IMG/VR virus record: IMGVR_UViG_3300042400_001174
Location: 1-36,502 of that record
Strand: one strand, 5' to 3'
Length of the DNA: 36,502 nucleotides
Source: a virus
The notes under the pieces: model-generated
What the model was told of the DNA's origin: nothing
Databases searched by the model: none
What the model saw: only the letters and a program-made list of their open reading frames with translations
Program-made: the position numbers and the translations under genes
Part shown: one piece after another, positions 1 to 36,502 of the stretch
Layout of the letters: each line of letters starts with the position of its first letter
Position numbering within the stretch: the stretch's first letter is position 1

Positions 1-64
1 GCGCCTTGGGCGCCCGGATGCCGAACAGCGCGGCCAGCCCGCCGAACACCGCCTTGGAGCACAT
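1..64 (-). CDS. 5' part of small podovirus structural protein, continues at base 36502 when the window is closed
   Basis: An ATG at 64 overlaps the TGA of the GNAT gene as TGATG and opens 21 codons (MCSKAVFGGLAALFGIRAPK-) before the window ends. Joining base 1 to base 36502 keeps the frame and gives a 71-residue protein ending in -KALLGA, whose stop overlaps the portal start. Small proteins with a Met-Cys start and a C-terminal Thr/Ser-Leu-hydrophobic plus KxLLG ending are, from memory, common beside portal genes of podoviruses; their role is not settled. The in-frame closure is seen directly; the family link is recollection. Confidence 0.75.
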   Translation of the reverse strand, partial: MCSKAVFGGLAALFGIRAPKA

Positions 65-606
65 CAGGCCGCCACCCGCGCGAAGGTGATGAAGGCCTCG
101 CCGTCGCGCCCCATGCCGGGGTGCAACCCCTCGGACTCGAAGCCCAGCCAGCGCAGCAGCGCGTGCGCGTCGTCGTGCCCGGCCATGCTGCGACACTCGG
201 CGCGGCGCATCCCGCGGGCCTCGGCGTCGGCCAGGACTGCGCGCGCGGCACGCACGCCCAGGCGCCACGTCTCGTGCCAGCGATCGGTGGCCAGCAGCCA
301 GGCCTGCCAGCAGCCGGGCCAGAACGAGGCCAGACCCAGGGCTGCCACCGGCTCGCCGTCCGGCGCCAGCACGGCGCAGCGGACCTCGTCCAGGCAGGGG
401 GCCAGCATGATGGCGGCGGCATGTTCGGCGGTCGCTTGGCGTGGCATCAGGGCGAAAACCTCGCGTTGATCCCAGACCCGCAGCCGCTGCGCGATGTGCA
501 GCGCCGCGTCCGGCTCCAATCGCCCTATGCGACCCGGCGCGCGCCGGGCAAGCGCTTCCAGCCCGGACGGGTGCAGCGCACCCAATTCAGCGCGCGTGCG
601 GGTCAT
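64..606 (-). CDS. GNAT-fold acetyltransferase-like protein, T7 gp13-type
   Basis: This 180-residue protein resembles the GNAT-like proteins (gp13/DUF2833 type) in T7-like and related podovirus structural clusters. Support comes from a central strand pair APDGEPVAALGLAS (81-94), a W-rich turn (96-110), a helix at 116-132, and the C-terminal pattern LGFESEG (154-160) followed by a GRDGEAFITF strand, the usual last motif of the fold. I chose ATG 606 over the longer upstream reading because it lies within the terminase stop region (20-base overlap) and the upstream residues are Arg-rich and shadow-like. It lies between terminase and the small pre-portal gene, so a minor virion or assembly role is more likely than metabolic acetylation. 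No substrate can be read from sequence. Confidence 0.7.
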   Translation of the reverse strand: MTRTRAELGALHPSGLEALARRAPGRIGRLEPDAALHIAQRLRVWDQREVFALMPRQATAEHAAAIMLAPCLDEVRCAVLAPDGEPVAALGLASFWPGCWQAWLLATDRWHETWRLGVRAARAVLADAEARGMRRAECRSMAGHDDAHALLRWLGFESEGLHPGMGRDGEAFITFARVAA

Positions 607-1903
607 GATGCGCCTCGACCACCACCCGGCGCCCCTCGCCCTTTTCCTCGCGGTGGCCATCGGCAAAGGTGCGCAGCGCGTCGGCGCCGTGGCTGGCCCA
701 GTCGTGCCGCGGCGCGGCCTTCCACACGCCCATGCGCTCGTTCCACTCCCGGCCGTAGGCCCGCAGCGCCGTGAGGCCGGCGGCGCACTCGACCTCATCG
801 AACAGCATGCGCGGCAGCAGCATCATCACGCCGTTGATCCCGCTCTCCACGCCGCCCCGCTGCACCACCCGCGTCGGCCGCACCTCGAGCCGGTTCAGCG
901 TCTGCTCGATCGTGTGCTTGCTCTCGCTGCGATAGTCGCGCTGCACCGCGTCGTGCGGCAGCAGGTGGCGCTTCCACTGATACCCGCGCCCGACCACATG
1001 CCGCGCGTAGTGGTCGAGGCTTTCGTCGGTGTCCTCGTAGTAGCCGATCGCGCGGATCGACCCGCCGTAGGGCGTTTGCAGGAACCATATGGCCGTGCCG
1101 TCGAAGCCCAGGTCCCACGAGGTCCACACCGGCAGGCTCGGGTCGTAGGGCACGCGCGTGATGCGGCCACCCACCTGCGCGTCGTGCAGCCGCTGGCCGT
1201 AGTAGCTGCCGCTCTTCGGCGCGTCCCAGCTGCATTCGAACTCCTGCGCAAACTCCTCGGGCGTCATCTCCGCCCGCATGCGCGCGATGGTGGCGTCGCT
1301 CAGCACGCCGGTGTCCTGAAACAGCAGCAGGTAGCGGCTGTGCCCAGCCTTGCGGCCGGCTTCGTCGTAGGCCTTTTTCAGCTTGCCGAGGCCCTTTGGC
1401 GTGCCCGAGCGGATCAGCGTGCCCTCATAGTCGGCGAGCATCGGCTCCACCGCCGTGACCAAGCCCTCGGCGTTCGTGTCGTCGTATTCGTCCACAATGA
1501 TCTCGTCGGCATAGCCGCCGCGCCAGCCGTCTGGATTATCCAGGCCCCCGGTCTGGAAGATGGCGCCGTTGGGCATCACCACCCGCCGCTCGACCTTCTG
1601 CACATCGGCGCCCGGTATGCTCTTCGCCGCCTTGTCGAGACGGTCCCACAGCCCGGTGCGCGTCCACTGCACCTGCTCGGGCAGCGTCATCACCACGCGC
1701 ACGGGGTCTGCCTTGAGCTGCCTGCGATGTGCCGGCAGATGCTTGCGCTGGTGCGTCATCGCCGTCATCAGGCCGCGCCAAATCCACAGGGCGCTCTTGC
1801 CGGCGCGCCGGTGGACCACTGCGGTGATCCGCTGCGCCGGATCGTGCAGCAGCGGCACCTGCCATGGTCGAGGCGCGAACGGCAGCACGACCTCGCGGCG
1901 CAT
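587..1903 (-). CDS. terL: Terminase large subunit (DNA packaging ATPase and nuclease)
   Basis: This 438-residue protein would cut concatemeric phage DNA and pump it through the portal. The N-terminal ATPase has a Walker A variant HRRAGKS (31-37), a Walker B segment EIIVDEY (134-140; D138, E139) and the RSGTPKG coupling motif (165-171). The C-terminal RNase H-like nuclease has SWDLGFDGT (262-270) with D264 and D268, a middle acidic segment, and DWASHGADALR (401-411). Length and motif order are normal for the family. ATG 1903 overlaps the stop of the upstream HTH gene as TGATG, which fixes the start; the longer upstream frame is Arg/Gly-rich and lacks motifs. Confidence 0.95.
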   Translation of the reverse strand: MRREVVLPFAPRPWQVPLLHDPAQRITAVVHRRAGKSALWIWRGLMTAMTHQRKHLPAHRRQLKADPVRVVMTLPEQVQWTRTGLWDRLDKAAKSIPGADVQKVERRVVMPNGAIFQTGGLDNPDGWRGGYADEIIVDEYDDTNAEGLVTAVEPMLADYEGTLIRSGTPKGLGKLKKAYDEAGRKAGHSRYLLLFQDTGVLSDATIARMRAEMTPEEFAQEFECSWDAPKSGSYYGQRLHDAQVGGRITRVPYDPSLPVWTSWDLGFDGTAIWFLQTPYGGSIRAIGYYEDTDESLDHYARHVVGRGYQWKRHLLPHDAVQRDYRSESKHTIEQTLNRLEVRPTRVVQRGGVESGINGVMMLLPRMLFDEVECAAGLTALRAYGREWNERMGVWKAAPRHDWASHGADALRTFADGHREEKGEGRRVVVEAHHDPHAR

Positions 1904-2984: not shown

Positions 2985-2993
2985 CGGCACCAG

Positions 2994-3044: not shown

Positions 3045-4283
3045 CTATTGGGTGGGTCGTTTAGCCGCATCAACACGGACCCCCTTCCTAGCTTTTCCTT
3101 CCTCAACATCGCGGAAGGTGGTCTCGAGGATCAGGCCGGACTTCGCCCAGGCGGCCATGATGTGCTTGGCCTGGGTGTCGTTGATGTCCATCACGTCCAT
3201 CAGGACGGTGCCGGCCCAACGGTCGCCGCCGCCGCGGCCCATGCGGTTCAGGGTGTAGAGCCAGCCCGGCTTGGGGCCTGCGTCGATGATGTCGAGCGCG
3301 CGGTTGGTTTGCTCGGGGGTGACATCCTCGAACACGTCCGGCGGGGTCCAGGGTTCGGCGACCTGAATGCTGTCGCCGCTGGGATAGGTGGCGGTGGCGT
3401 TGCCGAGCTCGACCGAGGCGAGGCGGAACCATGCCGCCTTGTCGGCGCGGGGGGCGAGGTTGGCCTTGGCGTCGTCCACGCGCACGTAGCGCCAGCGCTC
3501 GGCCTGGGCGATGTTGAAGCGCTCGCCGGCGTCGTCGTCCATGCGGGCCAGGGTCAGGCCCACGCGGGCGGCCGCGGCAATGGCGGAGCCGCCGCGCGCG
3601 TCCTCGATGTTGCCGCCGGTGGCGCCCTTGCGGGTGTGGTGCACCAGGATCACGGCGCAGTTGACGGCGGCAGCGATGCGCGCCCAAGCAGCCATGGCGG
3701 CGGCCATGTGGCCGTTGCTGTTCTCGTCCAGGTCGTGGCTGGACACGAAGGGGTCGACCACGATCATGCGCACGCCGCGGGCCTTGGCCTCGCGGGTCAG
3801 TGCCTCTTCGTCGGGGTGGGTCACGCTGGTCACGCCATCGGCGTTGGGGGCCAGGCGCGCGACGCAAAGCGGGCGGTCGCGGCCGGAGTTGATGTAGATC
3901 GGGGCGCACGTCGCGCGGTCCAGGCGGTAATGCTTGGCGGCGGCGGCGACGCGGCGGACCAACTCGTCGCGCCCGTCCTCGAGGTTCCAAATCCAGACCG
4001 GGCCGGGCACCCACACGCGGTGCTCGAGGAGCGGGCGGTTGGCGGCGACGGACAGCGCCATGCCGATCGAGAGCGCGGTCTTGCCAACGCCGCCGGGCGA
4101 GACGATGGCGGTGACGTAGCCGGCCAGGGCCTGCACGCCCAGCAGCCACGGGCGCGGCGCCAGGCTGGCGGGATCGGGCCAGGTGAACGGCTCCACGGCC
4201 AGCGGCAACTGGTGCACGGTCGAGTTCTCGAACTGCTCGAGGAGCGGGTCCGGTGCGTCGGGGTTGTCCACCGCGAGCCTCAT
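3045..4283 (-). CDS. RepA-like hexameric replicative helicase / AAA_25 ATPase
   Basis: This 412-residue protein has the RecA-like core of RSF1010 RepA-type helicases. Walker A is SPGGVGKT (62-69), followed by a catalytic-type WNLEDG (99-104), Walker B MIVVDPFVSSHD (173-184), the sensor VILVHHTRKG (211-220) and DARGGSAI (228-235), all in family order. It should unwind phage DNA at replication. The C-terminal third looks like a small winged-helix extension (DVMDINDTQAKHIMAAWAKS). ATG 4283 overlaps the preceding stop as ATGA. The TAG stop at 3045-3047 falls inside a degenerate repeat copy, placing helicase next to the repeat array and allowing that array to be an origin. I see no primase fused to it. 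Confidence 0.85.
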   Translation of the reverse strand: MRLAVDNPDAPDPLLEQFENSTVHQLPLAVEPFTWPDPASLAPRPWLLGVQALAGYVTAIVSPGGVGKTALSIGMALSVAANRPLLEHRVWVPGPVWIWNLEDGRDELVRRVAAAAKHYRLDRATCAPIYINSGRDRPLCVARLAPNADGVTSVTHPDEEALTREAKARGVRMIVVDPFVSSHDLDENSNGHMAAAMAAWARIAAAVNCAVILVHHTRKGATGGNIEDARGGSAIAAAARVGLTLARMDDDAGERFNIAQAERWRYVRVDDAKANLAPRADKAAWFRLASVELGNATATYPSGDSIQVAEPWTPPDVFEDVTPEQTNRALDIIDAGPKPGWLYTLNRMGRGGGDRWAGTVLMDVMDINDTQAKHIMAAWAKSGLILETTFRDVEEGKARKGVRVDAAKRPTQ

Positions 4284-9189: not shown

Positions 9190-9545
9190 CAGGCGCGGTC
9201 CGGGCCGGGCGATTGCGCACCGCCCGGCCCTTCCTCCATGCTGAAGGTGCGAACAGCAGCACAGGAGGTATTCGCATGGCTGGAACCGAAGTTACCCTCA
9301 GCGCCCAAGGGCGTGAGGCGATCATCTGGAGCATCGTGCAGCAGGTCGCGGCCAGCGAACGGGAGAGCGTCCGCAAGGCCGCCGCCGACCGCGCCTATCT
9401 GCTGGCGCTCATCCGGGAGGTTGCCGACGCGATCGACCGGAAGGGGTAGCCGCCCGGTAATCACCCAATCGGCCAAGGTGCCGGCGGCCTCTAAATCGCC
9501 GCCGGTAACCTTCCATGCCCATATGCGGACATCCATCTCGCTCAT
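9189..9545 (-). CDS. Possible 118-aa leftward protein, in conflict with an opposing gene
   Basis: The frame is coupled at both ends (ATGA with the Cro-like gene at 9542-9545, TGATG at 9189), the usual sign of a real gene here. Its N-terminal 35 residues (MSEMDVRIWAWKVTGGDLEA onward) look protein-like, but the rest lies directly opposite the 57-residue plus-strand gene and has poorer third-position GC. Either the gene once ran through and was disrupted, or only its first part is meaningful. No family recognised. Confidence 0.35.
   Translation of the reverse strand: MSEMDVRIWAWKVTGGDLEAAGTLADWVITGRLPLPVDRVGNLPDERQQIGAVGGGLADALPFAGRDLLHDAPDDRLTPLGAEGNFGSSHANTSCAAVRTFSMEEGPGGAQSPGPDRA
9202..9230. 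other. 10-bp GC hairpin upstream of the 57-aa plus-strand gene
   Basis: GGGCCGGGCG (9202-9211) pairs perfectly with CGCCCGGCCC (9221-9230) around a nine-base loop, followed on the plus strand by TTCCTCC. It lies between the divergent starts at 9189 and 9276 and could insulate the small plus-strand gene or stop plus-strand read-through. Confidence 0.45.
9276..9449 (+). CDS. Small helical protein, 57 aa, opposite to the surrounding operon
   Basis: ATG 9276 has a textbook ribosome site (AGGAGG at 9263-9268, seven bases away), one of the best in the window. The 57-residue product (MAGTEVTLSAQGREAIIWSI onward) is two amphipathic helices with a charged middle, and its codons show the high third-position GC of real genes here. 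It points right inside a leftward gene run and has GC hairpins on both sides (9202-9230 and 9481-9505), a layout like a moron cassette. No family recognised; its promoter is not obvious. Confidence 0.6.
   Translation: MAGTEVTLSAQGREAIIWSIVQQVAASERESVRKAAADRAYLLALIREVADAIDRKG
9481..9505. terminator. 8-bp hairpin downstream of the 57-aa gene
   Basis: CCGGCGGC (9481-9488) pairs with GCCGCCGG (9498-9505) around CTCTAAATC, about 30 bases after the plus-strand stop. It has no T-run, so it is a weak terminator candidate for the plus-strand gene. Confidence 0.35.
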
Positions 9546-9772
9546 GCCGCGCGCTCCTCGACCGGCGCCAAGGGGGCGGGGGTGCGGCCGTCAAGGAAGC
9601 TGTCTGCGGTGACCTGCCCTTCGGTCACCGTCCGAATGCGCATCAGCGCATCGCGGCTCGGCATCAGGTGGCCGCACAGCCAGCGGTTCAGCGTGACGAG
9701 ATGCACGTCGAGCATCGCCGCCGCTTCACGCTGGGAGAGTTTCTGAGCCTTGATCCATTCACGGAGCGTCAT
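9542..9772 (-). CDS. Cro-like repressor heading the leftward array
   Basis: A 76-residue protein with an HTH at residues 4-35: MTLREWIKAQKLSQREAAAM then LDVHLVTLNRWLCGHLMPSR. It ends in a strand-like stretch (TEGQVTADSFL) typical of phage Cro proteins. It is the first leftward gene and faces the CI-like gene across a 96-base control region, the classic arrangement of a lysis/lysogeny switch. No ribosome site precedes ATG 9772, and the best -10-like hexamer lies only nine bases upstream, so the message may be leaderless. Fold seen; role inferred from position. Confidence 0.8.
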   Translation of the reverse strand: MTLREWIKAQKLSQREAAAMLDVHLVTLNRWLCGHLMPSRDALMRIRTVTEGQVTADSFLDGRTPAPLAPVEERAA

Positions 9773-9868
9773 GGCGTCGGGTTTTAACGTATGGCGCGGT
9801 AATCTGTCCAGGGGTTTTAAGCGCTACCCGCAATGGTTGTTCTAGCGGCTGCCGTTTACCTTTCCCGT
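9773..9868. promoter_or_regulatory. Divergent control region between the Cro-like and CI-like genes
   Basis: This AT-richer gap holds two related sites, GTTTTAACGTATGG (9781-9794) and GGTTTTAAGCGCTA (9813-9826). Similar strings recur in the early promoter region (TTTTAGCGTAAG at 10229-10240; ATTTAACGTTTG at 10263-10274), so TTTTAACGT-like sites may be shared operators. On the minus strand TGGACA (9810-9805), 17 bases, and TTAAAA (9787-9782) make a plausible leftward promoter nine bases before the Cro-like start. A rightward promoter for the CI-like gene is not clear. Confidence 0.5.
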
Positions 9869-10219
9869 ATGGCCCGCCCCCGCACGAAGCCTCGTAACCT
9901 TTTGGCGCACCTGACCCCGTGGCGTGAGAAAGCGGGGTTGACCCAAGAACAGGTCGCGAACATCTTTGATGTTCATCCCGTGACAGTTTCACGGTGGGAG
10001 ACGGGGGAGCTACCGGTGGACCTGCCAAAGCTCAAGCGCCTGGCCGACCTGTTCGGGGCCGAGCATCACTCGCAGCTGCTATTTCCGCCTAGCGACGCCG
10101 TGACAATCGCCCGGCTGCGGCGCGCCCATGACGTGCTGGTGAACATGACCGAGGAGCAGGCCGCCAGGTGGCTGGGCACTGGCGAGGATGTGACCAAGCC
10201 CAAAGCGCCAAAAACCTAG
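9869..10219 (+). CDS. CI-like XRE-family repressor
   Basis: A 116-residue protein with a well-formed XRE HTH at about 16-62: WREKAGLTQEQVANIFDVHP then VTVSRWETGELPVDLPKLKR. A second helical part (VTIARLRRAHDVLVNMTEEQ) follows, short compared with lambda CI and lacking a LexA/S24 self-cleavage domain. ATG 9869 starts a compact protein with no strong ribosome site, so the message could be leaderless. Facing the Cro-like gene, it is the best candidate for the prophage maintenance repressor. Because it lacks a cleavage domain, induction would need an antirepressor or another route, which is inference. Confidence 0.8.
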   Translation: MARPRTKPRNLLAHLTPWREKAGLTQEQVANIFDVHPVTVSRWETGELPVDLPKLKRLADLFGAEHHSQLLFPPSDAVTIARLRRAHDVLVNMTEEQAARWLGTGEDVTKPKAPKT

Positions 10220-11956: not shown

Positions 11957-12267
11957 GCAAAGACCTGGCGGACGCGCTTTTGCGCGGGGATGCTGACGCC
12001 ACATGCTATGGCTTGCGCGATTTCGGTAACGCTCTGGCCATCCTGGACAGCCGCCAACCGCCCGAAAAATCAATCGTGTGGGCTGGCCCGGCGTCTGACC
12101 GCGCGCTTGCCGAAAAAGAACTGGCCAACCTGAAAATGCGGGCGCGGCTAGCTGCCGTTACCGCAGCGGCTAAGGCGCACATTCATTCGCACGAAAAAAG
12201 GGCGTTTGATCGTGACGACCGAGAAAAAGAACGCGCCATGTCGCAATTTTTGGGGATCACGCCATGA
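11953..12267 (+). CDS. Hypothetical protein, 104 aa, lower GC
   Basis: The product starts MSKDLADALLRGDADATCYG, followed by a loop with a Trp (SIVWAGPASDR) and a long basic helix (ELANLKMRARLAAVTAAAKA; HEKRAFDRDDREKERAMSQF). The DNA is less GC-rich than surrounding genes, a mild sign of separate origin. It ends in ATGA with the YqaJ nuclease gene, so it is co-translated with the recombination module. Function unknown. Confidence 0.65.
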   Translation: MSKDLADALLRGDADATCYGLRDFGNALAILDSRQPPEKSIVWAGPASDRALAEKELANLKMRARLAAVTAAAKAHIHSHEKRAFDRDDREKERAMSQFLGITP

Positions 12268-13199
12268 GCGACGCAGCCTGGCACGCAGCCCGCGCCAAGG
12301 TCGTCGGCGCGTCCGAGATCGCCGCGCTGTTCGATGTCTCGCCGCACATCAGCCACTACGCCCTCTGGCACATCAAGGCGGGCCGCGTGCCGCCGCCGAA
12401 CCTCGACGAAGACGAGCGGGTGCGGTGGGGCCGCCGCCTCGAAGCGCCGATCGCCGCCGGCATCGCCGAGGACCAGGGCTGGACCATCGCCAAGGGCGGC
12501 CACATCACCCACCCGACCGAGCCTGGCATGGGCTGCACGCTCGACTACCGGATCACGAAGGGCGGGCCGATGCCGGGCGAGGGCGTGCTCGAGGTCAAGG
12601 CCGTGGACTGGCTGGTGCGCAAGCGCGATTGGGGCGAGGAGCCGCCGGCGCACATCCTGCTCCAGCTTCAACACCAGCTGGCGTGCACGGGCCTGGCCTG
12701 GGGCGTGGTGGGCGCCCTGGTCGGCGGCAACGAGGTCCGCATCTGGCCCTACACCGCGCGCCCTGCGGTCATGAAGGAGATCGCCCGGCGGGTCGGCCGG
12801 TTCTGGGCCAGCATCAAGGCGAACAAGCCGCCGGCGCCGGACGGCAGCGAGAGCACCGCCGAGACGCTGGCCGCGCTCCACCCGCACGCCCGCGGCGAAC
12901 GCCTCGACCTTCGCGGCGACAATGAACTGCCCGAGGCCTGCGCCGGCTTCATCCGAGCCAGCGAGGAACGCGCCGCCGCCGAGCGGGCGCGGGACGCCTA
13001 CGCGGCCACCATTCGCAACAAGCTGGGCGACGCGCCCGAGGCCATGGTGGCCGGCTACACGGTGCGGCTGCCCGAGGTGAAGGGGCAGCCCGACCGGATC
13101 ATCAGCCAGGCCGATGTCGGCCAGGTCATCAGGGGCCGCGCCGGTCATCGCCGGTTGGCCGTCAAGCCCTACGAACTCAGTGAGGAACAAGCAGCATGA
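12264..13199 (+). CDS. YqaJ-family (lambda exonuclease-like) recombination nuclease
   Basis: A 311-residue PD-(D/E)XK nuclease of the YqaJ viral recombinase family. It has the entry motif GASEIAALFDVSP (15-27), RWGRRLE (54-60, E60), TLDYRI (92-97, D94), the core GVLEVKAVD (107-115; E110, K112) and the LLQLQHQLA helix (132-140). It should resect double-stranded DNA ends 5' to 3', leaving 3' tails for the RecT protein encoded next with an ATGA overlap, the standard pairing. The C-terminal part (220-311) looks like a small helical plus beta extension. Length and motif order are normal. Confidence 0.9.
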   Translation: MSDAAWHAARAKVVGASEIAALFDVSPHISHYALWHIKAGRVPPPNLDEDERVRWGRRLEAPIAAGIAEDQGWTIAKGGHITHPTEPGMGCTLDYRITKGGPMPGEGVLEVKAVDWLVRKRDWGEEPPAHILLQLQHQLACTGLAWGVVGALVGGNEVRIWPYTARPAVMKEIARRVGRFWASIKANKPPAPDGSESTAETLAALHPHARGERLDLRGDNELPEACAGFIRASEERAAAERARDAYAATIRNKLGDAPEAMVAGYTVRLPEVKGQPDRIISQADVGQVIRGRAGHRRLAVKPYELSEEQAA

Positions 13200-22676: not shown

Positions 22677-24534
22677 CGGGGGCGCCTTCGCTCGGCTGCT
22701 GTGGGTAGATTTCTTTGCCGCCGACCACCAGCACCGGCACGAAGCCATACCTGCGGACGATCTCGATCAATTCGTCGTTGAACACGACATAGTTGTAACT
22801 GCCGCTGCCCGCGCTGCGGCTGCCGCCGTCGAGGTATTGGATGCCGTCAATGCCGGCCGCGCGCAGGGCGGCGGAAGCGGCTTCCTCGTCGCGCGTGGCG
22901 CCGGGCACAAGGGCGCTGCTTTCGTAAAGCTGGGCGCCGGTCCATTCGGGCTTGAACCGCTCCGACCCCGGCAGGCTCATCAGCGCCCGCTGCACTTCTG
23001 GCGGCTGCTCGCTCAGCGGCTTGTCCCAATCCAGCAGGCGCTCGGGCGAGGTCTGAATGCGGACCTCGTAGACGTTGCCGGTGCGCGTTATCGGCAGGTC
23101 GGCATTCTTCTCCATCCAATCAGCCGCCTCGCGAAGCATGGCCGCCTTGGCCATATGCTCGGCACGCTCTGCCGCAAGGGCGCTGCCACGCATGCGCCGC
23201 GCGTATTGTTCATACGCCGATGCAAAACCCCGAACTTTCTGCGCAGCGTCGCCCAAGCTCGACGGGCTGCCGTCCTCACCAATCCATTTTAGGTTTTCAC
23301 GCACCAGGGCCGGCGGGTTCAATTCGCCAACGGTGCGCCCCCCCACCAGTGTTTCTGAAAGCGCGTTTCTGTAGCCTCTCGCCACATCCTCGCGGCTCGC
23401 GAAATACAGCCCGTGCCCGAACGCCTGCGCGCCCTCGCCCGTGCCGATCTTGGAACTGTCGAAGCGGTCCACGTTGTGCGGCGTGCCGTGGAATGCGCGG
23501 ATGCCCTCGGCCGGTGCAGCCGGTGGCGCGTTGGGGTAAACGCCAGCAGCACGCCGCGCGCGAGGCGCAGCAGCAGCGCCACCAGCGGCAGCGCGGCCAG
23601 CGCGACTGGCGGGGGCGGCCTGTGCGTCGCCGGTGGTAGAGGGCGCGCCCAGCAGCGCGGCCATGGCGGCCGCGGCGGTGGGGTTCTGGCGCAGCATCCG
23701 CACGCCCGCCACCACCGCCGAAATTGCGGCGCCGGTGACGGCGCCATCGGTCACTGACAGCAGCCTGGCCTTGATGCGCTCGTCCTCGGCCGCCGCCTGC
23801 TGGGGGTCCAGCGGGGCCAGCGTTTCCGGCGCCACGCCCAGCGAGCGCAGCAGCGTGACCATGCCGCCCTGCTCGGGATCGCTCATGAAGTCGGCCGCCA
23901 TGCCGCTGCCGATGTTGGCCAGCAGGCCGCGCCCCGCGGTGAAGCCGCCGGTGGTGGCGAACAGCACCAGATAGGTGCCCAGGTCCGCGATCGTGTTCGC
24001 GACCTCACCCTCGACCTCTGGGCGCGGCAGTTCGGGCGCCACCACGCTGAAGCCCGTGTCCTCGCGTCGCGTCGGCGACATCGAGGGCATGGGCACCATG
24101 CTCGGGGCAACCGAGCCGGATGCCGACAGGGTGCCCAGCACGTCGGCGCCGGTGTCGAGCACCGCCTGCGCCGCGCCCATCACCGCACGCCCAGCCACGC
24201 GCGCGCCCTGCATCACGCCCGGCACGATGCCCTCGCCGCCGGCCCGCCGATCGAGCACGGCCTGCGGGGTGCGGCCCGACACGCCGGCCGGGCGGATTTC
24301 GTCGGCCGGGTCAGCACCTCCGCCAGGACCGACAGGCCCCGCGCCGGCAGGGTTTGGGGCGGCCGGCGGCACGATCACGTCAGGCGCCACGCCGGTGCCA
24401 CCAGGCGGCCTGCCCTGCTCACCCTCGGGCGCGCCCTGCGGGTAGATGTCGATCACCGGCGGCTCGGTGGGCGCGGGCAGCTCGCCACGGCGGATCATGA
24501 TGCGCTCCAGCACGCGCTGCTCGATGTCGTTCAT
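22666..24534 (-). CDS. Internal virion protein with C-terminal ADP-ribosyltransferase-like domain
   Basis: Residues 1-340 are low-complexity and helical with two hydrophobic stretches (183-215, 262-280), as in ejected virion proteins. Residues 345-600 resemble ADP-ribosyltransferases of phage polyvalent proteins: IRAFHGTPHNVDRFDSSKIG (345-364), GHGLYFASREDVARGYR (373-389), VYEVRIQTSPERLLDWD (488-504), then GIDGIQYLDGG and SYNYVVFNDELIEIV (579-593). The His of FHGT and Tyr of LYF fit the H-Y-E catalytic scheme, with the Glu likely near the end. The DNA for this domain is less GC-rich than for the first half. It would modify host proteins at infection, by analogy with T4 Alt; the target is unknown. 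Confidence 0.75.
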   Translation of the reverse strand: MNDIEQRVLERIMIRRGELPAPTEPPVIDIYPQGAPEGEQGRPPGGTGVAPDVIVPPAAPNPAGAGPVGPGGGADPADEIRPAGVSGRTPQAVLDRRAGGEGIVPGVMQGARVAGRAVMGAAQAVLDTGADVLGTLSASGSVAPSMVPMPSMSPTRREDTGFSVVAPELPRPEVEGEVANTIADLGTYLVLFATTGGFTAGRGLLANIGSGMAADFMSDPEQGGMVTLLRSLGVAPETLAPLDPQQAAAEDERIKARLLSVTDGAVTGAAISAVVAGVRMLRQNPTAAAAMAALLGAPSTTGDAQAAPASRAGRAAAGGAAAAPRARRAAGVYPNAPPAAPAEGIRAFHGTPHNVDRFDSSKIGTGEGAQAFGHGLYFASREDVARGYRNALSETLVGGRTVGELNPPALVRENLKWIGEDGSPSSLGDAAQKVRGFASAYEQYARRMRGSALAAERAEHMAKAAMLREAADWMEKNADLPITRTGNVYEVRIQTSPERLLDWDKPLSEQPPEVQRALMSLPGSERFKPEWTGAQLYESSALVPGATRDEEAASAALRAAGIDGIQYLDGGSRSAGSGSYNYVVFNDELIEIVRRYGFVPVLVVGGKEIYPQQPSEGAPDGR

Positions 24535-26099
24535 CGCGACCCCAGCGTCGAGGTGGCCACGGCAGCCTCTGCCGCACGCAGCCGGTCCATCAGGTTCTTC
24601 CAGTTGGCATAGGTCTGCGGCGTCACCACCGTGCCGTCAGCCAGCTTTGGCGGTTCGGGCCGCGCACCGAACATGCCGCGGTTACGATCCGCCGCCAGGA
24701 AGGCCGCCATCGCCGTCTCAAGCTGCGCCCAGGCCTGGGGGTCGCGCACCGCGGCCGGCACCAGACGCACGTTGCGCTGAGCGTTGTCGAGATCAACCCG
24801 CGCCTTGGGGCTGCCCGGTTCGCGCAAACGCTGCTGAACGTAGGCGCGCGGGTCCATGTCGGGGTTGCGGTCGCGCTCGACGCGAAGGTCGTTCAGGATG
24901 CGATCAACCACCTGCTCGCGCGCCTGGGTTTCCTGTGTCCGCATGGCGTTGGGCACGTTGGACGGCACCACGCCCATTTCGCGGCTCAAGAACTCCTCGG
25001 CCTCGTTGAAGCGCACATTCTGGCGCTCCTCGATGCGCTTCAGGCCTTCCTCATACATTTCGAAGTTGATCTGGCGCGCGCCGATCATCGACTGCAGCTC
25101 TGTCCTGGTGAGCGGGTTGGTGCGGTCCAGCAGCCGCTCGCGGAACGCCGCGCGCATGATCGGCGTCGCCGGGATGTCCTGCTCGCGCCCGTTCACCAGG
25201 CCTTCGAACCGCGCGTAGCTCTCGCCGGTGCCGTAGGAGCGCAGGCGGCTCAGGGCCTCGCGTGCGCCCTGCACGTCGCCGCTGCGGGTGCGGTCGATGA
25301 TGTCCTTTTCGGCGGCGGTGGCCAGGCCCTCAACCTCGCGCCGCTGGGCCGCGTCCTGCCGCAGCGCGTTCGTGTAGGCCATGCTCGCCTGCGCCTGCTG
25401 CCGGCTGGTCGCGCTGTTCAGCAGCTGCACGCGCCGCGTCGCATCCATGCCGGGCATCTGTGCCGGGTCGCTCAGCATGGCCACCGCGGCGGCGGGGTTG
25501 CTCTGGATCAGCCGACCCACGCGCGCCGTGTCGACCTCATCGCGGAAGCCCTGGCTCAACCGCTGCAACTCGATTTGGGAAAGCCGCCCCTCGCTCTGCT
25601 GCAACAGGGTGCCCCAGTCGCGGATGGCCGCCTGGTCGCCGGTCGCCGCCCTGGCCGACAGCAGCCGGCTCTGTTCCAGCAGCGTCGCCTTGAATGCGTC
25701 CTCTTCCAGCGCGCGGCCGCGCGCGGCGGCGCCTCGCGTCAGGCCGTTGAAGTTGTCGACCAGGCGCGCCTGCGCCAGCGTGAACCCCTCGCGGTCGCCG
25801 CCCAGCCGTTCCTGCAACCCGGCCTCGATCTGCTGCCGGCGCTGCTGCACCAGGGGGCCGATCGTCGACGGGTCGCGCGCGGCGTCCACCTCGACCTGCA
25901 ACTCGCCGATCGCGTTGGAGGCCTCGGCCAGGGCGCGCACGCGCACGCCGGCCTGCACCCGCTCGCCGACCGCCTCGAGGTCCGATACCGCCTTGCCGAC
26001 CATGGCGCCGAGCGCGCCGGCTTGGCGCGGGTCCTGAAGCACCGGCTGCGGGGCCTGAACGCCCGTGCGGGCGGTGAAGATCGGGATTTCGGTTGCCAT
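24531..26099 (-). CDS. Internal virion protein, T7 gp15-like position, 522 aa
   Basis: An almost entirely helical 522-residue protein with many Gln, Arg and Ala and no Cys (VQQRRQQIEAGLQERLGGDR; QRLSQGFRDEVDTARVGRLI; ERQNVRFNEAEEFLSREMGV). It lies between the gp14-like gene and the ADP-ribosyltransferase-like gene, the position of T7 gp15, an ejection-channel component. ATG 26099 overlaps the previous stop as TGATG, and its stop overlaps the next start as ATGA. Sequence alone shows no enzyme motif; the assignment rests on order, length and composition. Confidence 0.7.
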   Translation of the reverse strand: MATEIPIFTARTGVQAPQPVLQDPRQAGALGAMVGKAVSDLEAVGERVQAGVRVRALAEASNAIGELQVEVDAARDPSTIGPLVQQRRQQIEAGLQERLGGDREGFTLAQARLVDNFNGLTRGAAARGRALEEDAFKATLLEQSRLLSARAATGDQAAIRDWGTLLQQSEGRLSQIELQRLSQGFRDEVDTARVGRLIQSNPAAAVAMLSDPAQMPGMDATRRVQLLNSATSRQQAQASMAYTNALRQDAAQRREVEGLATAAEKDIIDRTRSGDVQGAREALSRLRSYGTGESYARFEGLVNGREQDIPATPIMRAAFRERLLDRTNPLTRTELQSMIGARQINFEMYEEGLKRIEERQNVRFNEAEEFLSREMGVVPSNVPNAMRTQETQAREQVVDRILNDLRVERDRNPDMDPRAYVQQRLREPGSPKARVDLDNAQRNVRLVPAAVRDPQAWAQLETAMAAFLAADRNRGMFGARPEPPKLADGTVVTPQTYANWKNLMDRLRAAEAAVATSTLGSR

Positions 26100-26614
26100 C
26101 AGGGTGCCGCCGCGCCGCTCTTGAACCCGCCGCCGGCAGAGCTGCCGAACAGCTTGCCGACGCTGAACTGGCCGCCGGTGCCGCCGTCGAACCAGCCCTG
26201 CCTTGCGCCGCCCGCCAGAATGGACCCGCCGGCGCCGAGGAGGCCGCCGATCTCAAAGCTCGTGGCCGCGCGCCGCTGCGCCTTCGCCTGCGTCCGGTAG
26301 TTCTGTGCCTGCACCGCGCCGCCGTAGCGGATGGTCAGCGCGTCGAGCTCGGCCTGCGCCGCCTCAAACTCCATCACGTCGCCGGCGCTGCCCTCGGTGG
26401 TGAAGCCGCTGGCGCCGGTCGCCGTGCGCCGCTGGCCCATCCGCACGCGGTTGGCGGTGCGCTGCCGGGCCTCGTTCGCCGCCGCCGCATCGACCGCAGC
26501 GCCGGCCGCCGCGTCGAGCTGGTTGGCGTTGCCGCGCGCCGCCGCGCCCTGCGAAACCCCGGAGTAGAGCGAGGAGGCAGCCATGGCAGCCATGGCCAGG
26601 TAGGGCAGGCACAT
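26099..26614 (-). CDS. Internal virion protein, T7 gp14-like
   Basis: From ATG 26614 the product starts MCLPYLAMAAMAASSLYSGV, the Met-Cys plus hydrophobic opening typical of gp14-like proteins, followed by an Ala-rich helix, a basic RVRMGQRRTATGASGFTT turn and a Gly-rich C-terminus. An ATG at 26632 would add six residues but overlaps the previous gene and has no ribosome site. gp14-like proteins insert in the outer membrane during DNA ejection. Its place directly after tail tubular protein B and before the gp15-like gene supports this. Confidence 0.75.
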   Translation of the reverse strand: MCLPYLAMAAMAASSLYSGVSQGAAARGNANQLDAAAGAAVDAAAANEARQRTANRVRMGQRRTATGASGFTTEGSAGDVMEFEAAQAELDALTIRYGGAVQAQNYRTQAKAQRRAATSFEIGGLLGAGGSILAGGARQGWFDGGTGGQFSVGKLFGSSAGGGFKSGAAAP

Positions 26615-26618: not shown

Positions 26619-28613
26619 TCAATCCCCGACATTCTGCGTGACCACCAGCGCGGTCACGGTGCAAGGCAGGGGCTGATCCTGCTCGACCACGATGATGGCC
26701 TGGCGGTCAGCCAGCGCCGGAAAGGTCACCGGCTTGTCGCCCGTGAACAGGGCCGGGCTGTTGTCCATAGGGTCGGCGTCGGTCGCGAACACGATCCGCT
26801 CGCGCCCGCTTTGCGCGCCGCGCCGCCAGCCCACGATGCAGCCCATGGTCTGATACAGTCTGACAGCCAGCCGGTGTATCTGCCGCGCGCGCGTCTGGCT
26901 GGTGCCGTCCTGCGCGCCGCCCTCAAGGTCCACCGTTTCCATCAGCGACGTGAACGGCAGGCCGGCATGCACGCGCGCCGCGGCGAACGGCAGCACGATC
27001 TGGCCCAGCGCGACCAGCGCGGTGGTGGGCTTGCCGTCCGCCAGCACGGCCAGCGTCTCGCCCTCGAGGTGCGCCAGGCCGGTGAAGGTCGTGGTCGGCG
27101 CGCCGCTGTAGGACAGGCCCGCGTCCACGAAGAAGGCCTCGCGCTTCTCGGCCTCGGTGTCGCCGATGAACTCGGGTTCCATGCGCTCGACGAAGCGGCG
27201 CGTCACGCCGGCCACGGTGCGCTCCACCACCAGCCAGAGTTCGTCCTGCGTCGCCGCCGGGATCACGGCCAGCGACAGCACCCGCACATTCGCGCCGCCG
27301 AGCGGGTGGCGATGCCAAGCCACCACCTTTTCCTCGCGCATGTAGGTCAGCCCGATGAGCGCGCCGTCCGCCAGCACCATCCACACGATGCGCCAAGGCG
27401 TCTGCTGGTAGGCCATGCGCACGATGCCGGCGCGGGTGATGTGGCCCGCCAGGGTGGTCAGGTCGTTGGCCTGAAGGTTGTCGCTGTTGAAGTCGAAGAT
27501 CAGCTCGCGCAGCCGCCGCCCTGCCCGCTGGACAAAAAGCGTGACCGCGTCGATGCGCAGCGCGGGCACCTCGGCGCTGCCCACCGTCGTGTCCTGATCG
27601 GTGCGCGCGTTCGTGGCGGTCAGCCCGCTGGCCTCGTCGCCACGGATCGGCCACTCGCCGCCGGTGGTGCCCGCCGTGAGGTAGCGCCCGCTGTCCAGCC
27701 AGGCAATGGCGTTCACCGTGTTGGCGTTCAGCGTAAGGTTCAGCGCGTCGTCGGCGTTCGCGCCGGGCCGGTGCCGCTCATAGTCGCCGACCACGCTGCC
27801 CCACAGCGTTTGCGGGCGCTGCGCCGTGCGGCCCCAGAACAGCCGGTCCTGGTGAAACGTCACCGCGGCGGGGAAGCCGCGCGTGTCGCCGAAGGCGCCC
27901 AGCCGCCATTCCTTCGTGGCTGCGGTCGGCACGGTTTCGCCGGTGGCCACCGTCCAGTTCACCACCGTCGCCGAGGTGAAGCCGGTGATGCTGCCCCACC
28001 CCTTGGTGGTGCCGCTTTCCAGCCGCACCTGCCGCCCCACGTCGCCCAGCACGAAGGTGGCAGCGCTGGCGGTGAGAGTGCCCGCACCCGTGGCCACGCT
28101 GGACGTGAACGTCACGTCGCCGGCGTTCTTAGGCAGGTAGGGGCCATCGAGGAAGGCGATGGTGGTGAGCGTCCACGCGGTGTGCGCGGTGCGGCTCAAC
28201 TTGCGCGGCGCATGGTTCGGGTGCGCCAGATACAGCACATCGGCCGACTGCACCCAGCGCAGCCCGGCCAGGTCGGCGGCGCCGTAGGGCGAGGCGATCT
28301 CGTAGGGCACGCCGGGGCTGCTCTCGATCGGCGCGCCGTTCCGGTAGAAGCGGAAATACCCGGCGCCGGCCTCGATCGCATAGGCCTGCTCGGTCGAGAA
28401 CACGAACCCGATCAGCACCACCACGGCGTCGGCCTTCGTGCTGGCCACGTAGCGCGTGCCCGGCCGGCGCGTCACGCCGCCCTCGATCAGCGGCACGAAG
28501 TTCTCCAGCCGGCGGCACGATGAGATGTATTTCGCGATGTCCGCGCGGCCATACAGCCGCGGCGAGATTTCGCCGCCGTTGAAGCTGGAAAGCAGCGGGA
28601 CCGACCGCGCCAT
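26619..28613 (-). CDS. Tail tubular protein B (nozzle), gp12-like
   Basis: A 664-residue beta-rich protein starting MARSVPLLSSFNGGEISPRL, YGRADIAKYISSCRRLENFV and PLIEGGVTRRPGTRYVAST, the usual opening of podovirus nozzle proteins. A propeller-like body has repeated short strands, with WTLTTIAFLDGPYLP and later VTFHQDRLFWGRTAQRPQT as landmarks. It forms the distal tail tube to which fibres attach. ATG 28613 overlaps the stop of tail tubular protein A as TGATG. Length and order (A then B) agree with T7-like phages. Confidence 0.9.
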   Translation of the reverse strand: MARSVPLLSSFNGGEISPRLYGRADIAKYISSCRRLENFVPLIEGGVTRRPGTRYVASTKADAVVVLIGFVFSTEQAYAIEAGAGYFRFYRNGAPIESSPGVPYEIASPYGAADLAGLRWVQSADVLYLAHPNHAPRKLSRTAHTAWTLTTIAFLDGPYLPKNAGDVTFTSSVATGAGTLTASAATFVLGDVGRQVRLESGTTKGWGSITGFTSATVVNWTVATGETVPTAATKEWRLGAFGDTRGFPAAVTFHQDRLFWGRTAQRPQTLWGSVVGDYERHRPGANADDALNLTLNANTVNAIAWLDSGRYLTAGTTGGEWPIRGDEASGLTATNARTDQDTTVGSAEVPALRIDAVTLFVQRAGRRLRELIFDFNSDNLQANDLTTLAGHITRAGIVRMAYQQTPWRIVWMVLADGALIGLTYMREEKVVAWHRHPLGGANVRVLSLAVIPAATQDELWLVVERTVAGVTRRFVERMEPEFIGDTEAEKREAFFVDAGLSYSGAPTTTFTGLAHLEGETLAVLADGKPTTALVALGQIVLPFAAARVHAGLPFTSLMETVDLEGGAQDGTSQTRARQIHRLAVRLYQTMGCIVGWRRGAQSGRERIVFATDADPMDNSPALFTGDKPVTFPALADRQAIIVVEQDQPLPCTVTALVVTQNVGD

Positions 28614-29200
28614 CAGAAGCGCTCGGTCAGCCAGGTGTCGGAGATCACTTTTTCGTCCTGGCTCTGCTCGCGCGCGTCGATGCGCCGCGCCTCGGCCAGG
28701 GCCGTGCGGTAGCCGTCCATCATTGCCGCGCGCCGGCTCTCGCTGCCGGTCATCGGCCAGGCCACATCGGCGGCCAGGCGGTAGGCAATGGCCTCGACCA
28801 GCAGCGCGTCCCACTGCGCCACGTCGGTCAGCTGGCCCACATACTCGATCGGCAGCGGGCCGCCCTCATCGGTCAGCAGGTAGCGGCCCTCGACCCGCCA
28901 ACCGGTGTGGTGGGGCGTGTCGCCCACCAGCAGCACGCGCAGGCAGCGCAGCGGCAGCGGCCCCTCGGGCAGCGGGAACTGCTTGCCGTAGCCGAAGACC
29001 GGGGCGGTGGCGTCGGCCGCCAGCCTCACGCGACGGCGGGCGCAGTTCCAGGGGTAGGCCCGCAGCACCGCGTCGCGGGCAATGGGAAAGGCCCGACGCA
29101 TCCGCCGGGCCTCCTCCACGTCGGCCGCCAGGTCAACGACCGGGGCGGCATTGAGGTGGTCAAGGGCGCGGTTGACGACCTCGACCTCGCTGGTCGCCAT
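28613..29200 (-). CDS. Tail tubular protein A, gp11-like
   Basis: A 195-residue protein with the gp11 pattern: SEVEVVNRALDHLNAAPVVD (4-23), then EEARRMRRAFPIARDAVLRA and YPWNCARRR, a beta part with LPLRCLRVL and WRVEGRYLL, and late helices with DALLVEAIAYRLAADVAWPM. It should form the ring between portal and nozzle. Its start follows the 136-residue head gene after a 15-base gap, and it is coupled to tail tubular protein B. No unusual features. Confidence 0.9.
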   Translation of the reverse strand: MATSEVEVVNRALDHLNAAPVVDLAADVEEARRMRRAFPIARDAVLRAYPWNCARRRVRLAADATAPVFGYGKQFPLPEGPLPLRCLRVLLVGDTPHHTGWRVEGRYLLTDEGGPLPIEYVGQLTDVAQWDALLVEAIAYRLAADVAWPMTGSESRRAAMMDGYRTALAEARRIDAREQSQDEKVISDTWLTERF

Positions 29201-29652: not shown

Positions 29653-30561
29653 TTACGAGGCCAGGCACTTGATTTCGACCACCTTGGACTCTTCCATCCG
29701 GATCGCGCCGAAGGTGCACTTGGTGTGCAGCCGGATGTTGTAGCCCTTGGTGGGGTCGGGGGCGGCGTTGCTCACCGGCGCTTCGCCGATGCCGAACTTC
29801 ACGCCGCTCTTGGCGTAGACCGGCACGCGCACGCGACCGCTGCCGTCCAGCAGCATCCGCTTCTGCGCGACGGTCACGAAGTTGAAGCCCATGAACTTCT
29901 TCACCGTGCCGTTCTTCAGGCCCTCGAGCTCGCGGCGCACGTCCGGGTTGAAGTCGGCCGAGCTCACCTCGGTGGTGGCCAGCAGCGCTTGCTTCTGGCG
30001 CGGCGACACCACGATGGTCAGTTCCTCGTCTTCATCGATTTCGGCTTCCTCCAGCAGCGTGCGCGCGGCGCGGAGCTTGCCGACGGTCAGGAAGCTGTCG
30101 ATCGCGCTGCCGGTTTCGACGTAGTTCACCGCGATCTGCTGCGCGGCCGGGAACGCCACGGTGGTGCCGCCGGTCTTGCCGGTCTGCGCGTCCGCGAAGA
30201 TGCCCTGCATGATCGACAGGTCCATGCGCCGGCCAGCGGCGGCAGCGGCGGCCAGCGCGTAGGCCGACTTCGGGTCCTTCAGCGTGCGGACCATGTCCTG
30301 GCTGTCGATGAGCTCGCCCCACTCAAAGTCCAACATGGACAGCCGGCGGCGGTCGTGCGGCACGGGGGTGAACGGGGTGTCGGCGTGGCGCGAGGTGCGC
30401 TGGACCATATCGGCCTGGCCGATCTGGTCGAAGAACGCATACTCGCCCTTGACGGGCTCAGCGTCCACGGTGGGCATGAGCTTGGACTTCTTCTGCTGGG
30501 CCAGAAGAATGAAGCTGTCGCTGAAGGTGTTGACCCAGGCGGTTTCGACTTGGAGGGACAT
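29653..30561 (-). CDS. Major capsid protein
   Basis: A 302-residue protein with features of HK97-fold podovirus coat proteins in the BPP-1-like group: start MSLQVETAWVNTFSDSFILL, HDRRRLSMLDFEWGELIDSQ, DMVRTLKDPKSAYALAAAAA, and a central helical part with IVVSPRQKQALLATTEVSS, then FMGFNFVTV and the C-terminal strand TFGAIRMEESKVVEIK. It follows the scaffold gene, as expected. AGGAGC lies nine bases before ATG 30561, and a 206-base gap precedes it, unusual in this compact genome, so expression may be specially controlled. Confidence 0.85.
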   Translation of the reverse strand: MSLQVETAWVNTFSDSFILLAQQKKSKLMPTVDAEPVKGEYAFFDQIGQADMVQRTSRHADTPFTPVPHDRRRLSMLDFEWGELIDSQDMVRTLKDPKSAYALAAAAAAGRRMDLSIMQGIFADAQTGKTGGTTVAFPAAQQIAVNYVETGSAIDSFLTVGKLRAARTLLEEAEIDEDEELTIVVSPRQKQALLATTEVSSADFNPDVRRELEGLKNGTVKKFMGFNFVTVAQKRMLLDGSGRVRVPVYAKSGVKFGIGEAPVSNAAPDPTKGYNIRLHTKCTFGAIRMEESKVVEIKCLAS

Positions 30562-30767: not shown

Positions 30768-31631
30768 TCAGGCGGCCCGCTGTCTCTGCACCTGATCGAG
30801 CCGCGCTTGCAGGGCCGCATAGTCGGGATGGAACTTCGACATGTCTTGCATCTGCGCGATCAGCTTTTGGCTCTCGATCCTCGCCTCGTCGGGCGTCAGC
30901 AGCGCGCTGCGGCCGGTGCCCAGGCCGGGCGCGGTGTCCTCGGCCGACGCGGCGCCGATCTGCGCGAAGGCCTTCACCATGGCCGGCAGGTCGCCCAGCC
31001 GCGTGCCGGTGGGCAGCACGAGGTCGAGAACCTCTGGCGGCAGGTAGGCCGCCGCGGCGCGTGCAGCCAGCGCGGTCTTGGTTTCGTAGGCCTGGCCCCA
31101 TTCGGTGCGCAGCGCGGCAACACTGGCCTGGCCCGCCTCGGCCAGCCGCGCCATGTCGGCGGCCTGCATCTCGAGGTATTTGCCGGCCACCAGCTGGGCC
31201 TGCGCCGGCGTGAGGTTCGCCTCGTGCGCGATGCCGGCGAACGCCTTGGCGGTGTCGTCGCTCCACAGCAGCTCGGGCACAGTCTCGGGCCGCGCGATGG
31301 TGTAGCCCTGGGCAGTCTCGGGCACGCCGATGGCCTTGCGCCACGCTGCGGTCACCTCGGGCGCATCGCCGTCCTTGGGCACGATCGCGCCCTTGCGGCC
31401 CACCAGTTCCTGCGCGCTCACCAGCGCCTTGGCCAGGTCGGCCAACGGCGCTTCCTTCGCCTCCGGCGCATACTTCGCCAGGGCCGGGTTGCCGCGCAAA
31501 TCCTGGGGCAGCGCTGCGTGCCATGCCGGCGCTGCTGCTGCTGCTGGTGCTGCCGGTGCTGCGGCGGGCGCTGGCGTGGCGGCCGGGGCGGGGGTCGTGG
31601 CTTCGGTGCTGGTGGTGGTGGCTTCGGTCAT
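30768..31631 (-). CDS. Capsid scaffold protein
   Basis: A 287-residue protein with an Ala/Pro/Thr-rich N-terminus (residues 2-45), then AWHAALPQDLRGNPALAKYA, a Pro-flanked middle (VPETAQGYTIARPETVPELL) and a helical basic C-terminus (DYAALQARLDQVQRQR). This is the plan of podovirus scaffold proteins, with the C-terminal helix binding the capsid. It lies between the esterase-like gene and the capsid gene. ATG 31631 gives a natural N-terminus; the upstream extension is His/Arg-rich shadow. No protease domain is visible, so the scaffold is probably released intact. Confidence 0.8.
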   Translation of the reverse strand: MTEATTTSTEATTPAPAATPAPAAAPAAPAAAAAPAWHAALPQDLRGNPALAKYAPEAKEAPLADLAKALVSAQELVGRKGAIVPKDGDAPEVTAAWRKAIGVPETAQGYTIARPETVPELLWSDDTAKAFAGIAHEANLTPAQAQLVAGKYLEMQAADMARLAEAGQASVAALRTEWGQAYETKTALAARAAAAYLPPEVLDLVLPTGTRLGDLPAMVKAFAQIGAASAEDTAPGLGTGRSALLTPDEARIESQKLIAQMQDMSKFHPDYAALQARLDQVQRQRAA

Positions 31632-34132: not shown

Positions 34133-34135
34133 GGT

Positions 34136-34489: not shown

Positions 34490-34492
34490 CGT

Positions 34493-34729
34493 CTACCCCT
34501 TCACCATGCGCAGCGGCCGGGCCGCCAGCTTCATCAGTTCCAGAAACACCTCGCGCCGGCCCTCGGCCCGCTGCATCGCCTGCGGGTCCAGCGGCAGCGC
34601 GTCGCCGAAATGGCAGAATTTCGAGAGGTGGTCCCACAGCCGCTGCGCTTTGGGGTCGGCCGGGTCCAGCAGCTGCGCCACGATCCGGCCCAGCTCATCG
34701 CGCGGCGAAAGCTGCTGCTCGTCGCTCAT
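34493..34729 (-). CDS. Bbp19-like small head protein, 78 aa
   Basis: The product (RDELGRIVAQLLDPADPKAQ, then WDHLSKFCHFGDALPLDPQA and EGRREVFLELMKLAARP) has the helical pattern and spacing of the Bbp19 family encoded next to the portal in Bordetella phage BPP-1 and relatives. The role is not established; it is probably structural or chaperone-like. Its ATG overlaps the portal stop as ATGA, the same neighbour as in BPP-1-like phages. Confidence 0.7.
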   Translation of the reverse strand: MSDEQQLSPRDELGRIVAQLLDPADPKAQRLWDHLSKFCHFGDALPLDPQAMQRAEGRREVFLELMKLAARPLRMVKG

Positions 34730-36354
34730 GCCGCCAGCCCCTCGGCCACCTGCTGCGCCTTGGCCATGTCGAGCATCGCCTTGGCCTGGCCGGGCGCATC
34801 AGCCGACATGGCCGCGCCCTGCTGCGCCTGCTGCCGGTCCGCCCGTATCTTTGCCACGTCGCGCGGGTCGCGCAGCACCTCGGCCGGCGCGCCCTCGGCG
34901 TCGAAGATCGTGCGCACCACCTCGTCCATGTCGACCACGTCCAGCACGGTCGGGTCGGCCTGGGCCAGCGTCAGCACCTGCTGGACGCCGCGCACCACGC
35001 TGCCGGCCCGCGAACTGCGCTGCGCCCGCGCCAGCGGCGAAACATACGTCACGGCGAACCGCGGATCGTCGGCCAGTTCCGGCGGCAGCGGCGGCAGCGC
35101 ATTCGCGCGCTGCATGATGCGGAAGATGCGCGCGATCAGCGGGTCCAGCAGTTCGCTTTGCACGCGGCCCAAATGCGGGCCGAGCAGCCGCACCTTCTCC
35201 TCCTGCCGCGCGATCACCTCGGTGGCCGTGGCGCCGGGCGTCGGCATCATCATCAGCAGCGAGCCGAAGAACGCATCCTTGATCTGCGCCCGCTTCTGTT
35301 CGCTCATCGCAATGTCGAGCTGGAACGAGGCGCCCGAAGCCAGCGGCTTGATCAGCTCGCGGCCTTGCCCGTCGAGACCGCCGTAGGTAATGCCGTTGGG
35401 CACGATCCGCACCGTGCTGAAGGCGTCCTCGTCGGCGGCCAGCAGCGGCGGCGCGGCTGCCCGCTCGGCCGCCTGGGCCAGCGTGCGCTCCTGCACCTGC
35501 AACTGCTTTGCGTCCGGCAGCGCCATCATCGCCGGGCTGTCGCCATAGGCGAACCCGCTCAGCGTGCCCCAGCGCGTGACCATGTAGGGGAACTCTTCGA
35601 AGCCCCCCGTGCGCATGACCTTTTCGCCCTCGGCCAGGACGTGCATGGAGACGAACCGTTTGCCGCGCGGGCCCAGCATGTTCGGCTGGTAGACCTCGTT
35701 TGGCACCACCGCGTGCAGAATGCTGAAGCGCTGCTGTTCCTGGCCGGCGCGGATGCTGCGCATCACCACGTCCGGCGTGTCGGTCTTGTATTCCTGAAAA
35801 ATCTGCGCCGCGGTCCACTCGAAACGGCGCACCAGCGTGTCGACCACGCGCCGGTTGTTCTCGGCGATCCAGCACTCATGGATCGGCCGCGTGTCGAAAT
35901 GCACGCGGCGCCCGGCCACGTCCTCGTCCACATACATGATCGCGGTGCCCATCACCACGAGGTCGCCGAAGTAGTCGAGCACCTGCGAATAGAACCGATT
36001 GCCGCCCGAGGCGAACACCGCCGCCTTGCGGTTTTCCACCTCGCCCATCCATGCCCGCACCGGATAGAGCTGATCGAGCTCGGGGTCGGGGTGCGCCAGC
36101 TGGAACCAGCGATCGGCGCTCGATGTCGCGCCCGACCACAGGCCGGCGGCGAGCTGGTCGGCGGCGTAAATCTGCGCGCTGTCGAACACGCGGGTCATGC
36201 GCTTCTCGCCCAGCGTGCGGGCGGTCTGGCGCAGCAGATCGGCGCGCATGGGCTTGAAGATTTCGGCCACGTCCTGCAGGTGGCTGTCGAGCGTGCTGCG
36301 GTCGCCCTTCAGCTGGTCATACAGGCGGCAGACATCGCGGCCGGTAAGCATCAT
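34726..36354 (-). CDS. Portal (head-to-tail connector) protein
   Basis: A 542-residue connector of the Bbp21/head-to-tail connecting family. Marks include the start LYDQLKGDRSTLDSHLQDVA, RVFDSAQIYAADQLAAGLWS and GATSSADRWFQL (about 55-88), GTAIMYVDE (116-124), the strand WGTLSGFAYGDSPAMMALPD, and the long wing/stem helices with LLMMMPTPGATATEVIARQE. It forms the dodecameric DNA entry channel. Two ATG codons (36354 and 36351) open it; the stop of the small upstream protein overlaps as ATGA. The C-terminal tail is Gln/Ala-rich. Nothing is missing compared with the family. Confidence 0.92.
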   Translation of the reverse strand: MMLTGRDVCRLYDQLKGDRSTLDSHLQDVAEIFKPMRADLLRQTARTLGEKRMTRVFDSAQIYAADQLAAGLWSGATSSADRWFQLAHPDPELDQLYPVRAWMGEVENRKAAVFASGGNRFYSQVLDYFGDLVVMGTAIMYVDEDVAGRRVHFDTRPIHECWIAENNRRVVDTLVRRFEWTAAQIFQEYKTDTPDVVMRSIRAGQEQQRFSILHAVVPNEVYQPNMLGPRGKRFVSMHVLAEGEKVMRTGGFEEFPYMVTRWGTLSGFAYGDSPAMMALPDAKQLQVQERTLAQAAERAAAPPLLAADEDAFSTVRIVPNGITYGGLDGQGRELIKPLASGASFQLDIAMSEQKRAQIKDAFFGSLLMMMPTPGATATEVIARQEEKVRLLGPHLGRVQSELLDPLIARIFRIMQRANALPPLPPELADDPRFAVTYVSPLARAQRSSRAGSVVRGVQQVLTLAQADPTVLDVVDMDEVVRTIFDAEGAPAEVLRDPRDVAKIRADRQQAQQGAAMSADAPGQAKAMLDMAKAQQVAEGLAA

Positions 36355-36502
36355 GCGCCGAGCAGCGCCTTGGGGGTAGCGGGATTGGGCTGGTCCAGCA
36401 TGCCGCCCGCCAGAATGGTGCTATCCCGGCCGGCGGCCAGGCGCTGCCGCTTGCGCTCAGCCTCGGCGGCCTGGCGCACCGCGGCGGTGTCCTCGGTCGG
36501 CG
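36351..36502 (-). CDS. 3' part of small podovirus structural protein begun at base 64
   Basis: Fifty codons at the window end (PTEDTAAVRQAAEAERKRQR, then LAAGRDSTILAGGMLDQPNP and ATPKALLGA) stop in an ATGA overlap with the portal. Read together with bases 64-1 they form one 71-residue protein without frame change. A charged helix and an STILAGG-type motif plus KALLG end are typical of a small, uncharacterised protein next to podovirus portals. Confidence 0.75.
   Translation of the reverse strand, partial: PTEDTAAVRQAAEAERKRQRLAAGRDSTILAGGMLDQPNPATPKALLGA

Follow-up and report, generated by a model that had tools for sequence, protein, structure and literature searches.

Gene content and organization of the record

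The DNA analysed here (the window) is the whole of IMG/VR record IMGVR_UViG_3300042400_001174, a single contig of 36,502 bp. Gene calling on the circle made by joining its two ends gives ~50 genes, arranged as two units that start back to back near 9.8 kb and run towards each other to meet near 16.5-16.9 kb. The rightward unit carries the early genes (regulator, RecE/RecT and integrase) from ~9.8 kb to 16.5 kb. The leftward unit starts with a repressor-type helix-turn-helix (HTH) gene and runs through the replication, terminase, portal, capsid, tail and lysis genes, crossing the join, as far as 16.9 kb. The main genes and features are as follows:

1..64, minus strand: 5′ part of the join gene, 21 codons plus 1 base; continues across 36502/1
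64..594, minus: internal-virion-protein-type gene, between the terminase and the 71-aa gene (PHROG 308)
587..1903, minus: terminase large subunit (PHROG 2)
3045..4271, minus: primase/helicase-type ATPase (PHROG 25693, 906)
9542..9772, minus: HTH repressor-type gene, first of the leftward unit (PHROG 35, E 1.7e-6)
9833..10219, plus: HTH regulator, opening the rightward unit (PHROG 8/3)
12264..14098, plus: RecE-like exonuclease and RecT-like annealing protein (PHROG 434, 148)
15472..16512, plus: tyrosine-type integrase (PHROG 1, E 4.3e-38)
16636..16682, minus: probable attP core, 47 nt, equal to the 3′ part of tRNA-Val(GAC) from anticodon loop to CCA
16876..17274, minus: holin (PHROG 3427, E 1.3e-27)
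18000..19532, minus: tail fibre-type protein (PHROG 1640)
19536..26614, minus: internal virion protein block, with genes at 26099-26614, 24531-26099, 22666-24534 and 19536-22676 (PHROG 418, 873, 6651)
26619..29200, minus: two tail genes, 28613-29200 (PHROG 394) and 26619-28613 (PHROG 376)
29653..30561, minus: major capsid protein (PHROG 3437, E 1.7e-70)
30768..31631, minus: scaffold/protease-type protein (PHROG 3742 and 458)
34726..36354, minus: portal / head-tail adaptor (PHROG 332, E 1.9e-135)
36351..36502, minus: 3′ part of the join gene, 2 bases, 49 codons and stop (PHROG 831); the gene is whole in two related contigs, L004 and L005

Other families found are a RuvC-like resolvase, a DNA methyltransferase and a PAPS reductase. 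The portal is matched in 178 phage records. A short-tail module is present, with tail tube-type genes and internal virion proteins (PHROG 394, 376, 418, 6651), and neither a tape measure nor a sheath protein occurs among the family matches. The first-pass annotation of this DNA, made from the letters alone, had described a full temperate podovirus gene set with one leftward and one rightward unit, and the family searches recovered it. With a terminase, portal, capsid, short-tail module, integrase, repressor-type gene and attP, the window is, as judged from its genes, a temperate podovirus (Caudoviricetes).

Several further observations concern individual genes, some of them through two related contigs described below (G001 and G002). 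One ORF may depart from the two-unit layout: 57 aa long, it lies on the plus strand at 9276-9449 and is 98% identical in G001. The C5 cytosine methyltransferase frame at 4864-6213 overlaps a same-strand frame at 4902-5792; both match methyltransferase families, and the arrangement represents either dual coding or a frameshift. Within the internal virion block, 24531-26099 has no family match, and the protein of 22666-24534 combines a C-terminal match to PHROG 873 with a weak ART-PolyVal (ADP-ribosyltransferase) match, PF18760, below the Pfam cut-off. Between portal and scaffold, at 31652-34060, lie two large genes of 475 and 326 aa, both leftward, that have no PHROG or Pfam match yet are 95-99% conserved in relatives. 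Next to the holin, the ORF at 17271-17438 has a short endolysin-like stretch (PHROG 465); since it ends after 55 aa and the 150-bp piece that holds it is absent from G002, either the lysin has decayed or another gene codes for it.

A gene spans the two ends of the record

A minus-strand ATG at 64-62 opens a frame of 21 codons plus 1 base that runs as far as base 1. From 36502 leftward, 2 bases and 49 codons follow; the stop codon, TGA at 36353-36351, shares an ATGA with the start codon of the portal gene (ATG, 36354-36352). Read across 36502/1, the gene encodes MCSKAVFGGLAALFGIRAPKAPPTEDTAAVRQAAEAERKRQRLAAGRDSTILAGGMLDQPNPATPKALLGA, 71 aa. It was from this frame and junction, whose arithmetic checks out in full, that the first-pass annotation had proposed that the window closes on itself; it had also seen no direct repeat at the two ends, and indeed there is none of at least 10 bp in the 36,502-bp window. 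Its view that a random join would behave in this way with low probability was overstated. For 54% of 20,000 random pairs of cut points within the window, the cuts lay in two leftward genes; the join kept the frame in 18%, and in 4.4% an ATGA stop also followed downstream. Because of these frequencies, the frame argument is a hint, weak by itself, and not proof.

The suggested search with the 71-residue product had a divided outcome: tblastn against phages gave no match, probably because the protein is too short and divergent, whereas a profile search matched it to PHROG 831 (E 7.4e-9; residues 19-71 on profile positions 17-70 of 70). The motif of this family, a C-terminal GR-STIL-G...LLG, is present in the joined protein, which is encoded just before the portal. 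Genes at the same position in two Acetobacteraceae contigs (L114 and L115), Bordetella phage vB_BbrP_003 and HTVC010P all share it, in an alignment of hand-picked neighbours of portal genes. Linker length is variable across the family, the protein being 71 aa here and as long as 135 aa in one phage of the BPP-1 type. Given its position, the gene may encode an accessory protein of head assembly or of the connector.

Independent contigs cross the join

The frequencies above leave room for a reading in which the window is a large linear fragment, its ends in frame by chance and other genes lying between them. The record is classed 'linear' in the database, which counts against circular closure, and the missing end repeats fit a fragment as well. 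We scanned IMG/VR with the portal and the 71-aa joined protein and obtained two contigs from other metagenomes, namely: L004 (3300042568_000793; 4,661 bp) and L005 (15,069 bp), which in full is G001 (3300034071_002328). A minus-strand piece of 3 kb, with the join at its centre, gives a single alignment to each, at 96% identity to L004 and 95% to L005. In both, the order is terminase, internal-virion-type gene, 71-aa-type gene and portal; the join gene is whole and no gene lies between its halves. Since these contigs carry both halves as one gene, the two ends of the window are true neighbours, and at the species level the linear fragment is contradicted. A search for further join-crossing contigs via the internal-virion-type gene returned only the same two.

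The rest of the circle can be followed in the same way. G001 spans the window from 30852 to 36502, across the join, and from 1 to 9569, while G002 (3300034071_002096; 20,060 bp), from the metagenome of G001, spans it from 30289 to 10991. Together they tile the circle except for gaps of 562 bp and ~1.4 kb, both of which are continuous in the window. By these alignments, the three contigs G001, G002 and the window, each broken at a different place, close into one circle. G001, G002 and L004 have the gene order of the window, at ~92-98% DNA identity in most shared blocks, and distant relatives keep the same order. A chance in-frame fragment is thus very improbable, and the proposal that the window closes on itself is supported by the relatives that cross the join and by the tiling of the circle. 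Longer flanks running on into chromosomal DNA, named at first pass as the outcome that would speak against closure, were not seen.

The strains of the group also differ by exchange of modules. In G001, most of the module at 2506-5815, upstream of the terminase, is replaced by other DNA, i.e. a mosaic exchange. The PAPS-reductase-type gene (PHROG 424) at 7368-8216 is absent from G001, which is 97% identical; because the flanking genes there meet cleanly, this comparison marks it as a recently gained or lost cargo gene.

Closure at the level of bases

Exactly at the base 1/36502 position, L004 has 15 extra bases and G001 has 24. They code for a longer Ala/Pro linker (KAP-TPPPA...-PTED) within a proline-rich stretch of 83-86% GC. 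Because the linker varies in whole codons, the frame is kept whether bases are missing or not; either the linker is shorter in this strain, or the assembly broke within the tract and a few codons were lost from the contig. The chance that closure at 36502/1 is exact to the base is perhaps even, and 36,502 bp may fall a few codons short of the true circle. The relatives cannot fix every base, since whole modules have been exchanged among strains of the group. Of the earlier proposal of a complete circular genome, then, the gene adjacency at 36502/1 stands, and base-exact closure, given relatives with 15 and 24 additional bases, is left unproven.

The length-variable, GC-rich, proline-coding tract is a likely assembly break point. 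This bears on a sub-question of the circular reading, namely whether the complete genome has fixed physical ends (direct terminal repeats or cohesive ends) instead of being packaged as a permuted headful. A circular map would result from each of these packaging modes, so fixed ends would fit equally; against them, the contig ends inside a GC-rich coding tract, which has the look of a break in assembly and not of a packaging end. Fixed ends are possible, at somewhat less than even odds. A literature search for temperate podoviruses of the BPP-1 type that have permuted genomes found none.

Integrase, attachment site and host

The integrase has a 99% identical copy in G002. The 47-nt tRNA-Val(GAC) segment at 16636-16682 sits between integrase and holin, at the point where the two transcription units converge, with phage genes on both sides, and is likely attP. 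G002 carries it with one change (46/47 nt), also found in several host tRNAs, and with a different flank. Judging from this anatomy and from relatives, the integrase would recombine the tRNA-Val(GAC) 3′ segment with a host tRNA gene. Acetobacteraceae integrases 42-45% identical to it are similarly placed beside a tRNA-Gly(GCC), a tRNA-Val(GAC) or a tRNA-Val(CAC)-like fragment. The phage can thus probably insert into a bacterial tRNA gene.

The 47 nt match exactly in 8 of 200 Acetobacteraceae genomes versus 1 of 289 genomes from a sample of the class, and when up to one mismatch is allowed the counts are 37 of 200 versus 8 of 289; the host sites examined with ARAGORN are tRNA-Val(GAC) genes. 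The nearest cellular relatives of the terminase (52-57%) are Acetobacteraceae MAGs. These matches point to a host that is probably an Acetobacteraceae. No integrated copy of the phage was seen.

An integrase and a repressor-type gene would also be expected if the window were an integrated prophage cut from a chromosome. Such a prophage would run from att to att, whereas here the putative att site is internal, with phage genes on both sides, and the ends of the window lie 16-20 kb from it, within structural genes. Family searches found no host genes at either end. We therefore reject the integrated prophage, which has hardly any probability left; with a whole att site in its interior, the record reads as a free or excised form.

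Taken together, we hold with a probability of about 95% that the window is an essentially complete ~36.5-kb genome of a temperate podovirus (Caudoviricetes) with a circular map and probably an Acetobacteraceae host, its ends being true neighbours with 0 to ~24 bases possibly missing between them.

Relationship to known phages

Megablast of window positions 1-25000 against 50,697 phage records gave no near DNA match. Within the close group, G001 and L004 share the join gene, and G002 shares the integrase and the attP core. Further away, L114 and L115 have a portal 46-48% identical to that of the window and a join-type gene at the same place.

HTVC010P-type pelagiphages resemble the window in their order of terminase, small genes and portal, with a small gene ending in GRSTTILTG...LLG. 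They infect marine SAR11 hosts, and with a portal ~37% and a terminase ~31-34% identical to those of the window's group, and no DNA match, the window does not reach genus-level identity to them in the core genes. Freshwater genomes related to this type are reported to be without integrase (PMC6811365). Rauchvirus BPP1 (Bordetella phage vB_BbrP_003) likewise has the order TerS, TerL, small genes, portal and protease, with the same C-terminal motif gene before the portal, but differs in its portal (32% identical), its size (42 kb) and its host, Bordetella. Given this portal identity and the absence of a match in the megablast search, the window is not placed in the genus Rauchvirus.

The phage is of an ordinary, known kind. 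A precedent is uv-Fonsiphage-EPL, of HTVC019Pvirus group III, a tRNA-integrating temperate podovirus circularised from metagenomes (PMC6811365). It belongs to another group and integrates at tRNA-Leu (TAG), in contrast to the tRNA-Val(GAC) predicted here. A literature search on podoviruses of Acetobacteraceae/Roseomonas found nothing relevant. On balance we lean towards a reading in which the window represents a genus-level group of Acetobacteraceae temperate podoviruses, so far undescribed, that would integrate at tRNA-Val(GAC), and is the first essentially complete genome of that group.

As a result of this analysis, a record labelled 'linear' can be read as a phage genome that is essentially complete and in the correct orientation, its integration site and host family are predicted, and several orphan metagenomic contigs are tied to one phage group. 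Contigs without an end repeat can be closed via relatives, the limit being a few bases at a length-variable tract.
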